Source of the DNA: Parvularcula sp.
Lineage (GTDB): Bacteria > Pseudomonadota > Alphaproteobacteria > Caulobacterales > Parvularculaceae
Reading direction: 5' to 3'
NCBI GenBank assembly: GCA_002704915.1
Contig: PAIP01000020.1
Location: 28,421 to 92,420, forward strand
DNA length: 64,000 nucleotides
Shown here: one piece after another, positions 8,585 through 51,762 of the stretch
Layout: each line of letters begins with the position of its first letter
Numbering within the stretch: position 1 is the stretch's first letter
Translations under genes and position numbers: made by a program
Notes under the pieces: model-generated
The model's input: the letters and a program-made list of their open reading frames with translations, nothing else
What the model was told of the DNA's origin: nothing
Database searches by the model: none

Positions 8585-10723
8585 TTATTCAGCGGTATGC
8601 GCCAGCACAGCTTCCGCGGCGCGCGCCTGCTCGCCGACATAGAGCCTGATCGCCTCGGCGTCTTCTTGCGAAAGCTTGTCGCCGAACCCGACCATGCCCT
8701 GCGCGCTCAAGCCGCCGTGTAGCACGACCTGTTCCCAAGCTTCCGGAGAAGACAGAATAGCCGACCGGCGCAGATCCGGGATGACGCCGGCGGACCATGC
8801 GCTGGCGCCATGGCAGCGCATGCAGTGACCCGCATAAAGACCGGCGCCGAGCGAAACCTGGGAGGACGGCGCCTCTTCCGCAGGCGGATTAAAAGGAACA
8901 ACCGGCGGTTCATAGTGCGGCAAGCTTGCGGTTCCGTCGAGCTTAAACACCAGCAGCCGTCCGTTGGGGCGGACATAAGGGTCTTTTACATAGGGCGAAA
9001 AAATACCCACTACGCCGCCAAAGCCGGCGAGCACGGCGACATATTGTTCGCCATCGATCTCGTAGCTGGCCGCGGCAGCTATCGCCCCACTCTGCCCGTC
9101 GAAGCTCCAAAGTTTTTTTCCATCGCTGGCCTTGTAAGCGGAGAACATGCCATTCGGCTCCCCCTGAAATATCAGATTTCCGCCCGTCGCCAGTATGCCG
9201 CCATAACCAATGCCGTCATGCTGAACGCGCCAGACAGTTCTCTGTTCCACTGGATCGAAAGCCGTAATCGATGCGCTCACCGTATCTATGGCCTGCTGGC
9301 GCTCCTCCACGCTTGCGGGACCCACATTGGTGGGCGATGCATTCCCCAAATTCCAATCGCCCAGATGATAGCGGAATCCCGGTTCATCCTGATAGCCGAA
9401 CATATGGTCCTGCGTGGGTATGTAAACGAGCCCCGTATCGGGACTGTAAGCCATGGGATGCCAGCTATGAGCGCCATAGGCGCCGGGCCGCGCGACAAAA
9501 TTCTCATCGTTGCCTGCAGACCATTTCGCCTCTTCGTTGACGATTGGACGGCCCGTTTTCGGGTCGATGCCCCTCGCCCAGTTGACGGATACAAAGGGCT
9601 GCGGCAGCGTCGCAAGCTCGCCATTCGAACGGTCGATCACATAGAAGAAACCATTTTTTGGCGCCTGCATCGCCACCTTCCGGGGCTCGCCGTCGATCGC
9701 GATATCGGCAAGTATGATCGGCTGCGTCGCCGTAAAATCCCACGATTCGGCAGGCGTTTCCTGATAGTGCCATTTGTAGGCGCCGGAGTCGGCGTCAAGC
9801 GCAACGATGGATGAAAGGAAAAGATTGTCTCCCTTGCCGTCGGAGCGGATCCTGTAATTCCACGGACTCCCATTCCCGACACCAATCAATATCTGATCGA
9901 AATCCTTGTCATAAACGATCGCGTCCCAGACGGTCCCGCCGCCGCCATATTTGTACCACTCTCCGAACCAGCTCGGCGCAGCTTTTTCTTTCATGACAGC
10001 GTCAGACGCCTCGCCGTCGGGACCCGCAGCCGGATCGCCGGGCACAGTATAGAAACGCCACGCTTTCTCTCCCGTCTCGACATCATACGCCGTGACATAT
10101 CCGCGAACGCCGTATTCCGCGCCGCCATTTCCGATGATGACCTTGTCTTTCGCGATGCGGGGCGCACCGGTGATCGTATAAGGCGTTTTTGGATCGAATG
10201 TCTGCGCGGTCCAGACGACGGCGCCCGTCTTGGCGTCTAGCGCAATAAGACGCCCGTCGAGCGCCCCAACGAAAACCTTTCCACCGGCCGCAGCCACGCC
10301 GCGGTTTGCGACATCGCAACAAGCGTCAAACCCTTTTTCTCCCGGCACTTCCGGATCGAAACGCCAAACCTGCTCTCCGGTCTTCGCATCGTATGCATAG
10401 ACTTTCGACCATGCGGTCGACACGTAAATGACGCCGTCAACGACGATTGGGTTCGCTTCCTGCCCCCGGTCGGTATCGAGGTCGGCGTACCAGGCAAGTC
10501 CCAGCCTCTCTATGTTCGCTTCGGTGATCTGATCGAGCGGGCTATAAAAGGTTTCCCCATAAGCGCCCCCAATGACGGGCCAGCCCGCCGAATCCGCCTG
10601 TTCCGTGGACGCACGGGTGCAAGAAGCAACGCCAAACGCCGCCAACAACGCAAAAGCGACTCGCCTTCCATATGTGCTTGCGGCCCCGAGCCGATCGAAT
10701 TTTTTTCTGATGCCCATCGCCAT
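8585..10723 (-). CDS. PQQ-dependent dehydrogenase with C-terminal cytochrome c domain (quinohemoprotein alcohol dehydrogenase type), predicted lipoprotein
   Basis: Beta-propeller W motifs, vicinal Cys FDACCDVANRG, heme site CMRCH near C-terminus, lipobox-like FGVASC. Confidence 0.88.
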   Translation of the reverse strand: MAMGIRKKFDRLGAASTYGRRVAFALLAAFGVASCTRASTEQADSAGWPVIGGAYGETFYSPLDQITEANIERLGLAWYADLDTDRGQEANPIVVDGVIYVSTAWSKVYAYDAKTGEQVWRFDPEVPGEKGFDACCDVANRGVAAAGGKVFVGALDGRLIALDAKTGAVVWTAQTFDPKTPYTITGAPRIAKDKVIIGNGGAEYGVRGYVTAYDVETGEKAWRFYTVPGDPAAGPDGEASDAVMKEKAAPSWFGEWYKYGGGGTVWDAIVYDKDFDQILIGVGNGSPWNYRIRSDGKGDNLFLSSIVALDADSGAYKWHYQETPAESWDFTATQPIILADIAIDGEPRKVAMQAPKNGFFYVIDRSNGELATLPQPFVSVNWARGIDPKTGRPIVNEEAKWSAGNDENFVARPGAYGAHSWHPMAYSPDTGLVYIPTQDHMFGYQDEPGFRYHLGDWNLGNASPTNVGPASVEERQQAIDTVSASITAFDPVEQRTVWRVQHDGIGYGGILATGGNLIFQGEPNGMFSAYKASDGKKLWSFDGQSGAIAAAASYEIDGEQYVAVLAGFGGVVGIFSPYVKDPYVRPNGRLLVFKLDGTASLPHYEPPVVPFNPPAEEAPSSQVSLGAGLYAGHCMRCHGASAWSAGVIPDLRRSAILSSPEAWEQVVLHGGLSAQGMVGFGDKLSQEDAEAIRLYVGEQARAAEAVLAHTAE

Positions 10724-48879: not shown

Positions 48880-48937
48880 ATGGTGGAGGGGGCTGGATTC
48901 GAACCAGCGTACGCAAAGCGGCCAGATTTACAGTCTG
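48880..48937 (-). repeat. att-like partial tRNA-Tyr (3' 57 nt), distal island boundary
   Basis: Exact copy of 51677-51734 (atggtggagggggctggattcgaaccagcgtacgcaaagcggccagatttacagtctg); D-arm and 5' acceptor strand missing. Confidence 0.92.
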
Positions 48938-49130: not shown

Positions 49131-49420
49131 CCATCCGTCGGGCGTCGTAGGTGAGCGAGCCGCCGTTGATCGTATCCTACTGGTTGAGGCCATTGGGCGA
49201 ATAATTGTCCGTGCCCAATGAGGTCTCGGACCAGTAATAGCCGCTGGTCACCGTGCGCCCGGTGATCTGGCTCGCCGGGTTGTAGCCGTCCAGCGCGAAG
49301 GAAAAATCGCCCGCCGGCCCCGGTCCTGCCCCGGGCAGCTCGTGGCTCACTTCCGTCAGCCGCGACAGCCCGTCATGGTCGTAGCTTGTCGCCGCGCCGT
49401 TCGCCCAGGCGATGGCGCCT
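49131..49420 (-). pseudogene. RHS/YD-repeat core fragment, displaced
   Basis: Minus-strand translation AWANGAATSYDHDGLSRLTEVSHELPG...GYNPASQITGRTVTSGYYWSETSLGTDNYSPNGLNQ*DTINGGSLTYDAR; in-frame TAG at a usual YD tyrosine position. Confidence 0.75.
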
Positions 49421-49498
49421 ATAGTTAGCGAAAGTCGCTATAGTCATAATCTCTTGCATTGATTCATAACGTACAAAATGGTTTGAACGTTATATTAT

Positions 49499-49975
49499 CT
49501 ATGATGCCATAGTAGAATTTACGTCATACCACCAAAAATCTGAATTCCAGTCCTCTAATAGTTGCCTTGCGGTTTCACGATAATGCTGCTCATGCTTTTT
49601 AAAAAAAGGTTTGAGAGATTCATACAGCAATCTTTTTTTGTCTTCGTTTATATTAATTCCAATCCTCTCATGTAGAAAAACATTATCAAGAATCCAAAAA
49701 ACCTGAAACATTTCCTCAAATTCAAATTCAGAAAAGTGAGGATCAATTATTCGAAGGACGTAGTCTATTTTTTCATCGAGCACATCAGCGATTCCAATTG
49801 AGTTTACAATCCTTCGGTATCTCTCTTTGAGGCAATCAACTTCTTCAAAAGAAATCGCTTCCAAGCTTCTGTAAACTTTTCTAAGGATGGACGGAATATC
49901 TTTCCGATTAACCTTGCCAGCATTTAGCTTATTAAGCTCCGCATCAATTCGTTTGTATACAAGCGATGTGGTCAT
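49499..49975 (-). CDS. Putative immunity protein for the adjacent RHS C-terminal toxin
   Basis: 158-aa helical, charged, visibly AT-rich ORF; its ATG directly follows the toxin stop codon (ccaTAAATGacc). Confidence 0.65.
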   Translation of the reverse strand: MTTSLVYKRIDAELNKLNAGKVNRKDIPSILRKVYRSLEAISFEEVDCLKERYRRIVNSIGIADVLDEKIDYVLRIIDPHFSEFEFEEMFQVFWILDNVFLHERIGININEDKKRLLYESLKPFFKKHEQHYRETARQLLEDWNSDFWWYDVNSTMAS

Positions 49976-51058
49976 TTATGGATTCCAAGTAAATCCGGGC
50001 AACCTTCTTAACTCGTCTAAACCACCTTCTGGACGAAAATGAGTATGAATTCTAGGCTTTTTGCCAAGCTGGCTTGTGGCGGTAAACAATCCGGTCCCTT
50101 CGTTAAAGTAGCCAATTCTTTGCTCATCTGTAGATCTATCCCTATATTTAAATTTCTTACCATTCTGAATTGTATCCCGTGCGCTTATGTCATACTGCTT
50201 AGCATTTTTCACTCCTATATCATCTCCGTGCTTTTTGAAATGGCCACGCAATCCAGGACCATCAACGCCTTGGCGGCTTTTTTGCCATTTCGCTTGCTTT
50301 GCAACACCGGTAAAGTGTCTTGAGCGAAATGCAGCAGAAGCAACATCGTCGCCAAGCCGAGACGCAACTCCAAAACCAGTAGCATAAGGAGCGGCTGTCC
50401 CGGCAGCGTCTGCTAGTATTGCTGTTATATTTTCCTGACGGTTTGCACCGCCATTAAAAAACTCATCATAGCCAAGGGCGCCCACGTCATAGAGCAGGAA
50501 GCCAACGTCCAAAATTGTATCTAACGGAATATTGCCCGAAGGGTCTGAATATTTGAGTGGGTCATTGAATGCATACGCATACATGTTCATGTCGGCTTCG
50601 TAGCCGATGGGGTCGATCTGGAGGAAACGGCCCGTGTCGGGGTCGTAGAGGCGGGCCTTGTAATTGTAGAGCGCCAGCTCATAAAGCCAGGTCTGGCCGG
50701 TGTAGCGGAAGGTTCCGTCATTATTGGCGTGCTGGCGCCCGAAGGCGTCATAGAGGTTCGACGTCACCAGCGCGCCGGTCGACGCGTCGAGATAGGCCGA
50801 GACGCTGCCGCGCTCGTCCGCGAGCATCGTCACGGCGTCCGGCGCCCCCGCCGCGGCGAGGCATTTCTGGGTCGCCCCCGCCCCGCCATTCTCGCACAGG
50901 ATCGGATTGTCGGTCCCACCGCCATGGGCGTAGCGCCGGAGCAGCGTTCCGCCGCCATTATATTCCGCGATGAGATTGTCCCCGTCATAGAGGAAGCGCC
51001 GCCCGCCGGTCGCGGTGACGGAGAAAAGCCGGTCCGCGGGATCGTATTTGAAGGTCAC
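49976..51058 (-). CDS. RHS repeat protein C-terminal fragment with polymorphic toxin tip (5' truncated; RHS homology extends to about 51160)
   Basis: YDPADRLFSVTATGGRRFLYDGDNLIAEYNGGG..., LYNYKARLYDPDTGRFLQIDPIGYEADMNMYAYAFNDPLKYSDPSGN hallmark, followed by unrelated C-terminus GLRGHFKKHGDDIG...HTHFRPEGG. Confidence 0.85.
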   Translation of the reverse strand: MTFKYDPADRLFSVTATGGRRFLYDGDNLIAEYNGGGTLLRRYAHGGGTDNPILCENGGAGATQKCLAAAGAPDAVTMLADERGSVSAYLDASTGALVTSNLYDAFGRQHANNDGTFRYTGQTWLYELALYNYKARLYDPDTGRFLQIDPIGYEADMNMYAYAFNDPLKYSDPSGNIPLDTILDVGFLLYDVGALGYDEFFNGGANRQENITAILADAAGTAAPYATGFGVASRLGDDVASAAFRSRHFTGVAKQAKWQKSRQGVDGPGLRGHFKKHGDDIGVKNAKQYDISARDTIQNGKKFKYRDRSTDEQRIGYFNEGTGLFTATSQLGKKPRIHTHFRPEGGLDELRRLPGFTWNP

Positions 51059-51150
51059 CGCGCCGGAGTTCGCCGAGACCGGGCGGTTTACCGCGTCATA
51101 GACATAGGTGTTGACCCCGTCCGCGGTGAGGTTCCCCCGGGCGTCGTAAG

Positions 51151-51615
51151 TCAGCGAGCCGCCGCAGCGTCCAGCCCATCGAGAAGATAGAGACGGTAGT
51201 CCGGAATGGATGCGGCTTTGCCTTCAGATTCCATCGCCTCAATCACAAACTCGAACAGGTCCTTCACAGACCCTTTGCGGGTTAGCCCTCCTGGCCGTGG
51301 ACGCCCGCCACCGGCAGCCCTCGGATCGGCAAGCAACTCAGTCGCCTTCCGGCGAGCATCCGTGAGCGACACAGTCGGATAATGACCAATCGAAATCCGT
51401 TTCCGGCCAGACGACGGGCCAATCAGTACAGAGAATGTTTTCCGGCGCTTGCCTATGCGCACCCAAAGATTGGGGCATCCGAGATCAACAAACTCGGTCG
51501 TTTTGTCGAACGGTCCAGCTGTGCGGAGCCACCGGTCAGTGAAGGTGCGTTGGGCCACTTTCAAAGCCTCTCGAGAAGCACCAAAAAATGTACCAAGAAT
51601 TCGCACACACCCCAA
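51151..51615 (-). pseudogene. Tyrosine recombinase/integrase, N-terminal fragment only
   Basis: Arm-binding domain KRRKTFSVLIGPSSGRKRISIGHYPTVSLTDARRKATELLAD and core-binding start; runs into RHS sequence and stops without the catalytic domain. Confidence 0.8.
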
Positions 51616-51677
51616 GTCAGCCGATGACCTATTGAAGATTTTAATATATTATATAATTAAATCAATCTTCTAGAAGA

Positions 51678-51762
51678 TGGTGGAGGGGGCTGGATTCGAA
51701 CCAGCGTACGCAAAGCGGCCAGATTTACAGTCTGGTGGATTTAACCACTCTCCCACCCCTCC
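51678..51762 (-). tRNA. tRNA-Tyr (GTA), CCA encoded
   Basis: RC ggaggggtgggagagtggttaaatccaccagactgtaaatctggccgctttgcgtacgctggttcgaatccagccccctccacca; acceptor GGAGGGG/CCCCTCC, long variable arm, TTCGAATC T-loop. Confidence 0.97.

Follow-up and report, generated by a model that had tools for sequence, protein, structure and literature searches.

A probable orphan toxin module with a colicin D-like RHS tip in an island remnant at a tRNA-Tyr gene

Gene content

The window analysed here is a 64,000-nt stretch of a Parvularcula sp. contig. Within it an RHS C-terminal fragment, the variable tip that ends this fragment and a 158-aa ORF follow one another, all on the minus strand. The RHS fragment (49976..51164, tip included) starts abruptly at a junction with an integrase gene remnant, and both the N-terminal delivery region and the full RHS repeat shell are missing: the frame is open from 51223 to 49976, which is 415 codons from stop to stop and sets the upper limit of the fragment. 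Counted from an internal GTG at 51058, ORF 49976-51058 encodes 360 aa and contains the RHS hallmark DPIGYEADMNMYAYAFNDPLKYSDPSGN together with the tip quoted in a first-pass annotation of this DNA. The order given there, hallmark and then variable tip, is borne out: the RHS repeat-associated core TIGR03696 (50534..50752, minus; NCBIfam E=2.9e-21, residues 103-175 of the 360-aa ORF) comes directly before the variable region, which opens with a pre-toxin linker read from the sequence and lacking a Pfam match (50258..50533, minus). The tip proper (49979..50257, minus) is assigned below, from HMM, AlphaFold2 (AF2), Foldseek and invariant columns, as a colicin D-like RNase toxin domain of the BECR fold.

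No base separates the toxin stop from the start codon of the 158-aa ORF (49499..49975, minus), a putative immunity gene, the border reading ...CCA TAA ATG ACC.... GC content is ~0.32-0.44 across the tip and this ORF (~0.32-0.40 in the ORF stretch) against mostly 0.57-0.69 in the flanks, so that the abutment with an AT-rich ORF is as first described. The 158-aa ORF was open in 0 of 20,000 mononucleotide shuffles.

The island remnant

The first-pass annotation gave no strand, and it lacked the features that frame these genes: a tRNA-Tyr gene, a pair of 58-bp repeats, an integrase fragment and a second RHS fragment. The tRNA-Tyr gene (GTA anticodon; 51678..51762, minus; ARAGORN) is the integration target. 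One direct repeat copy forms the attachment site at this gene (51677..51734) and the other the distal attachment site (48880..48937); the copies are identical at 58/58 positions, and the islet between them measures 2,739 bp (2.74 kb). Next to the tRNA gene lies the N-terminal fragment of a tyrosine integrase with an Arm DNA-binding domain (51151..51615, minus; Pfam PF13356, E=1.3e-8). It corresponds to approximately the first 133 of the 412 residues (the first third) of a relative's full integrase, is broken where the RHS fragment begins (~51160-51165), and over the shared part is 62-67% identical to full integrases found at tRNA-Tyr in two other genomes, G021 and G006. The second RHS repeat fragment (49134..49423, minus) is a pseudogene with an in-frame TAG at 49177-49179, and matches 51133-51164 at 88% (repeat D3). 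The marks of a tRNA-integrated island are seen here: attachment repeats, one of them in the tRNA gene, and an integrase, albeit cut.

In G021 and G006, ~40 kb separate two copies of the tRNA-Tyr repeat (G021:C11:129812-169769 and G006:C40:30923-70710), with a full integrase by the tRNA gene. To judge from the sequences, this repeat region is likely an island hotspot in the genus. In the stretches read of these two regions, nothing related to the window's RHS fragment occurred. A third repeat copy, 93% identical, lies elsewhere in the window's own genome (G000:C70:309361-309418; ~9362-9419 of locus L076), and the 18 kb read around it held no relative of the integrase fragment.

The simplest reading of the sequence would be that large deletions shrank the island to its present remnant. 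We also considered that an RHS cassette had jumped into the integrase gene, and rejected this because the sequence from the second RHS fragment to the distal repeat has no match to the integrase C-terminus, making deletion the simpler account.

Fold and family of the tip

As a single sequence the tip matched nothing convincing in Pfam, PHROGs, NCBIfam, PADLOC or PDB; matches to glutamine synthetase and protein G were taken as chance. Searching with tblastn gave no match in plasmids and one weak match in phages (E=9e-3), which opened up a family located C-terminally in phage Mu F-like minor head proteins. Profiles run against 399 genomes, together with further scans, extended it to an RHS protein of Xenorhabdus griffiniae, a Hazenella protein, a PAAR/S-type pyocin protein, a pre-toxin TG protein and short forms that look membrane-anchored. 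No close homologue of the window tip was found in 385 genomes of the same class, plasmids or viral contigs, and pattern scans with it gave no relatives in genome and viral contigs. The tip is absent from 59 other sampled relatives, and the sampled genomes of the same genus hold no relative of it.

An HMM was built from twelve relatives, leaving out the window tip, and run against the 1,230 six-frame ORFs of the window. The tip scored E=7.8e-10 and the next-best ORF E=3.8; the score of 38.9 bits compares with a maximum of 8.5 bits among 2,000 shuffles of the tip. Against PDB the profile matched 8ey4_A at E=1.5e-25, followed by colicin D (1tfo/1v74) at a sub-threshold E of ~0.11. The link from tip to known structures passes through intermediate relatives at ~17-35% identity.

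AF2 on the tip alignment (pLDDT 80.5) predicted two helices, four strands and a closing helix (H15-24, H33-46, E48-54, E59-66, E71-76, E84-88, H93-99). The model, with its N-terminal helices and then a four-stranded antiparallel meander, agrees with the BECR layout as defined in PMC3482391. Foldseek against PDB placed the CdiA toxin 8ey4_A first (probability 1.00), with colicin D structures at 0.95 (1tfo), 0.89 (1tfk), 0.72 (5znm) and 0.69 (1v74), the Pseudomonas CdiA-CT 6d7y at 0.69, the colicin E5-type 3ao9 at 0.54 and HigB lower down; the top four matches are all BECR RNases. Since the Foldseek E-values are weak (best 1.8e-3; TM 0.52-0.62), the case for the assignment depends on fold, profile and motif all agreeing. 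The motif-based BECR call of the first-pass annotation is upheld by the relatives-only HMM, the AF2 topology and the Foldseek ranking, and the comparison with BECR toxins that it had proposed as a check recovered the 8EY4 CdiA toxin, colicin D and colicin E5. Within the BECR fold, the colicin D-like clade is the narrower assignment.

With residues counted from 50299, the predicted active-site codons on the minus strand are H20 (50240-50242), H24 (50228-50230), D27 (50219-50221), Y36 (50192-50194) and T86 (50042-50044). Alignment A2 shows no variation at H20, H24, Y36 or T86, and A4 none at T86. The profile alignment sets H24 on H611 and D27 on D614 of colicin D, both reported to be essential (PMC3482391). 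Tox-Colicin D of the polymorphic toxin systems is defined by Hxx[ED] and a [TS] residue, and RHS and phage MuF architectures are named for it (Zhang et al. 2012, PMC3482391). The window tip has these motifs, as H24-G-D-D27 and as T86 on strand 4, in an RHS architecture; it differs in reading THFR where TxxK is expected (R for the usual K of TxxKP), and the 158-aa ORF falls outside Pfam and NCBIfam families. It also has H20 in place of one lysine of the [KH]K pair before the catalytic His. The tRNase domain of colicin D with ImmD (1TFO, 1TFK, 1V74, 5ZNM) resembles the tip in fold, in the positions of the catalytic His and Asp and in the order of elements, although in sequence the two are joined only by the sub-threshold match given above. 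Colicin D is a plasmid bacteriocin. By analogy with the family we infer RNase activity with tRNA as target; the tip is most likely a tRNase.

Relatives of the tip and their partner genes

Domains of the tip type are found at the end of RHS proteins, of PAAR/pyocin proteins and of phage MuF-type head proteins, and in most of these relatives a small ORF follows the toxin. The closest layout is that of Xenorhabdus griffiniae (L018), where an RHS core precedes the same type of tip and a small ORF is adjacent, although the protein there is a 1535-aa RHS protein and the window holds a fragment. Hazenella coriacea (L019) likewise has this type of tip and an adjacent small ORF. The partners in these two, of 123 and 124 aa, are related to each other (33% identity). 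In the phage and PAAR relatives the ORF after the toxin is of the Cys_rich_CPCC type, as is 8ey4_I, the bound immunity partner of the solved 8EY4 toxin. The 123/124-aa ORFs differ from the CPCC type and have no visible relation to the 158-aa ORF. The CdiA-CT/CdiI pair of E. coli O32:H37 (PDB 8EY4) is like the window's module in that its toxin domain belongs to the sequence family of the tip and has an immunity partner, and unlike it in being a CDI toxin rather than an RHS tip and in its CPCC-type CdiI, which is unrelated to the helical 158-aa ORF.

Three secreted-looking alphaproteobacterial proteins (L015, L016 and L017, in G053, G748 and G710) carry a domain of the tip type from which both conserved histidines are missing, with for example RAFDRNG or RSFERNG in place of the His motif; the TMFKP motif is retained. 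Their sequences suggest that these are perhaps domesticated, non-catalytic versions of the domain. L015 and L016 each lie near an apparent UbiB-type kinase gene.

The 158-aa ORF

The 158-aa protein is predicted to be all-helical (single-sequence model, pLDDT 67), and a fold search with this model gave no meaningful match. It belongs to no family in Pfam, NCBIfam, PHROGs or PADLOC, has no sequence match among solved immunity proteins and none in plasmids or phages. With a single Cys and no PF14206 match, it lacks the cysteines of the CPCC type. The 385 genomes of the same class yielded one credible relative, L047 in G060, a 76-aa fragment cut at its start by a contig end; comparing the two directly gives 30% identity across 67 residues with E=2e-10. 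An Imm10 gene lies ~0.9 kb downstream of L047, a neighbourhood that supports an immunity role, short of proving a pairing with the window's tip. Weak matches in G092, G220 and G317 were set aside for an internal stop. None of these three genomes nor G060 holds a relative of the tip, no further relatives turned up when plasmids and viral sequences were scanned with the L047 fragment, and homologues of tip and ORF together were not found elsewhere.

Three things argue that the 158-aa ORF is probably the immunity gene: its position, the same gene order in relatives of the tip (there with other immunity families) and the partial homologue near Imm10. Its product would then probably be a helical immunity type distinct from the partners of the relatives and so far uncatalogued.

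Delivery genes in the genome

That no delivery gene is visible had been noted for the window, and this extends to the genome, in which neither a complete RHS gene nor VipB (a type VI sheath component) was found. The genome has only two RHS core matches and one RHS_repeat match. The assembly is a draft of 85 contigs, 98.95% complete, in which repetitive RHS genes can be missed, so that the absence of a complete RHS gene is not certain. The other RHS core match, on contig C1, also looks split into short frames. On C1 (L055, G000:C1:55342-55641) lies a second RHS C-terminal fragment with another tip. Downstream of it, an ORF of 137 aa that includes a hydrophobic segment may encode an immunity protein; a match to Y1 transposase there is weak (E=0.0038) and falls below the cut-off.

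In Salmonella, orphan rhs-CT/rhsI modules have a full 'main' rhs gene upstream and can be revived by recombination with it (Koskiniemi et al. 2014, PMC3967940). Like these, the module consists of an RHS C-terminal fragment that has neither start nor export signals and adjoins an immunity gene, here a putative one; it differs in that no main rhs was found and an integrase fragment and tRNA-Tyr lie upstream instead. The earlier proposal of a stored orphan module is better restated as an island remnant at tRNA-Tyr, since the genome yielded neither a complete RHS gene for it to recombine into nor VipB.

Interpretation

The locus is best explained, with good though not full confidence, as an orphan polymorphic-toxin module consisting of an RHS C-terminal end, a colicin D-like BECR ribonuclease tip (most likely a tRNase) and its cognate immunity gene, lying in an island remnant at tRNA-Tyr. 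Computation establishes the fold, the family, the gene order and the island remains. On a complete, delivered RHS protein such a tip would enter the cytosol of a neighbour and cleave RNA there, His24 acting with the help of His20, Asp27 and Thr86, and the 158-aa protein would bind and block it in the producer and its kin. The window's own toxin is probably not exported, since its RHS gene lacks the N-terminus and the integrase is cut; if any part is still useful, it would most likely be the immunity gene. The tip appears to be a distant new RHS-borne member of a known colicin D-like type, and the module one of the known orphan RHS tip kind.

Two doubts touch the identity of the parts. The 158-aa ORF might be an unrelated passenger, as its lack of any catalogued family and its dissimilarity to the immunity genes of the tip's relatives would allow; we think this improbable given the TAA-ATG abutment, the low GC common to tip and ORF, the gene held by relatives at the equivalent place and the homologue near Imm10. 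Slightly more improbable still is a BECR-fold tip that has lost its activity, in the manner of L015-L017. Relatives without both histidines do exist, and the tip departs from the usual residues at TxxKP and, relative to the lysine of colicin D, at H20, but H20, H24, Y36 and T86 are all present and a D occupies the E/D position.

Two further readings concern present use rather than identity and are compatible with the orphan-module explanation. One, to which we give not quite an even chance, is plain decay: a recently stranded island piece without present function, whose frames are open because little time has passed. The truncated integrase, the stop in the second RHS fragment and the lack of tip relatives in the sampled genus point this way, and the intact 58/58 repeats fit a young event without proving one. 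Nearly as plausible is that island and delivery were lost, the toxin part became a fossil that is no longer translated and the 158-aa gene alone was kept, against neighbours with the same tip. Transcription may then come from the old integrase promoter, which is now upstream and runs in the same direction; the start of the integrase and the RHS fragment share a strand within one short stretch. The missing complete RHS gene agrees with such retention, as does the decay of the neighbouring RHS fragment beside the open tip and 158-aa ORF. Against it, the toxin frame is just as open, promoter-like sites were no commoner than in shuffles in a promoter scan, and the searches gave no close relatives on which selection could be measured. 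A still more specific proposal, unlikely as a whole, is that the 158-aa ORF founds an uncatalogued family of helical immunity proteins (C-terminal EDWNxDxWW) whose target is a divergent colicin D-like RNase borne on RHS, and was kept as a free-standing gene under the former integrase promoter after deletion of the surrounding island.

The tip family gave no match to a Pfam model, nor the window tip to one of NCBIfam, though the structure of one member is solved. The family is carried by RHS, CDI, PAAR/pyocin and phage head proteins, and the immunity types paired with it number at least three and are apparently unrelated. From the window come a divergent RHS member and a candidate new immunity family. 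The module is moreover a concrete test case for whether immunity genes outlive toxins in decaying islands.

Other carriers of the tip domain

Short proteins with an intact HFEKHGHEF-type domain, some with an N-terminal hydrophobic segment, were found at L020, L021 and L012. In L020 and L021, from metagenome-assembled bacteria, an ORF of 135-143 aa comes next, making them possible candidates for further toxin/immunity pairs. Two Neisseria gonorrhoeae records of ~2.17 Mb within the plasmid collection (NZ_CP119142.1 and NZ_CP119140.1) match the phage-type domain by tblastn at ~53% identity, at places with no annotated feature. On a plasmid of Ligilactobacillus salivarius (L009), a 184-aa phage head-type toxin fragment and its CPCC partner gene lie beside the gene of a tyrosine recombinase, so that here too a pair is stranded outside a phage.
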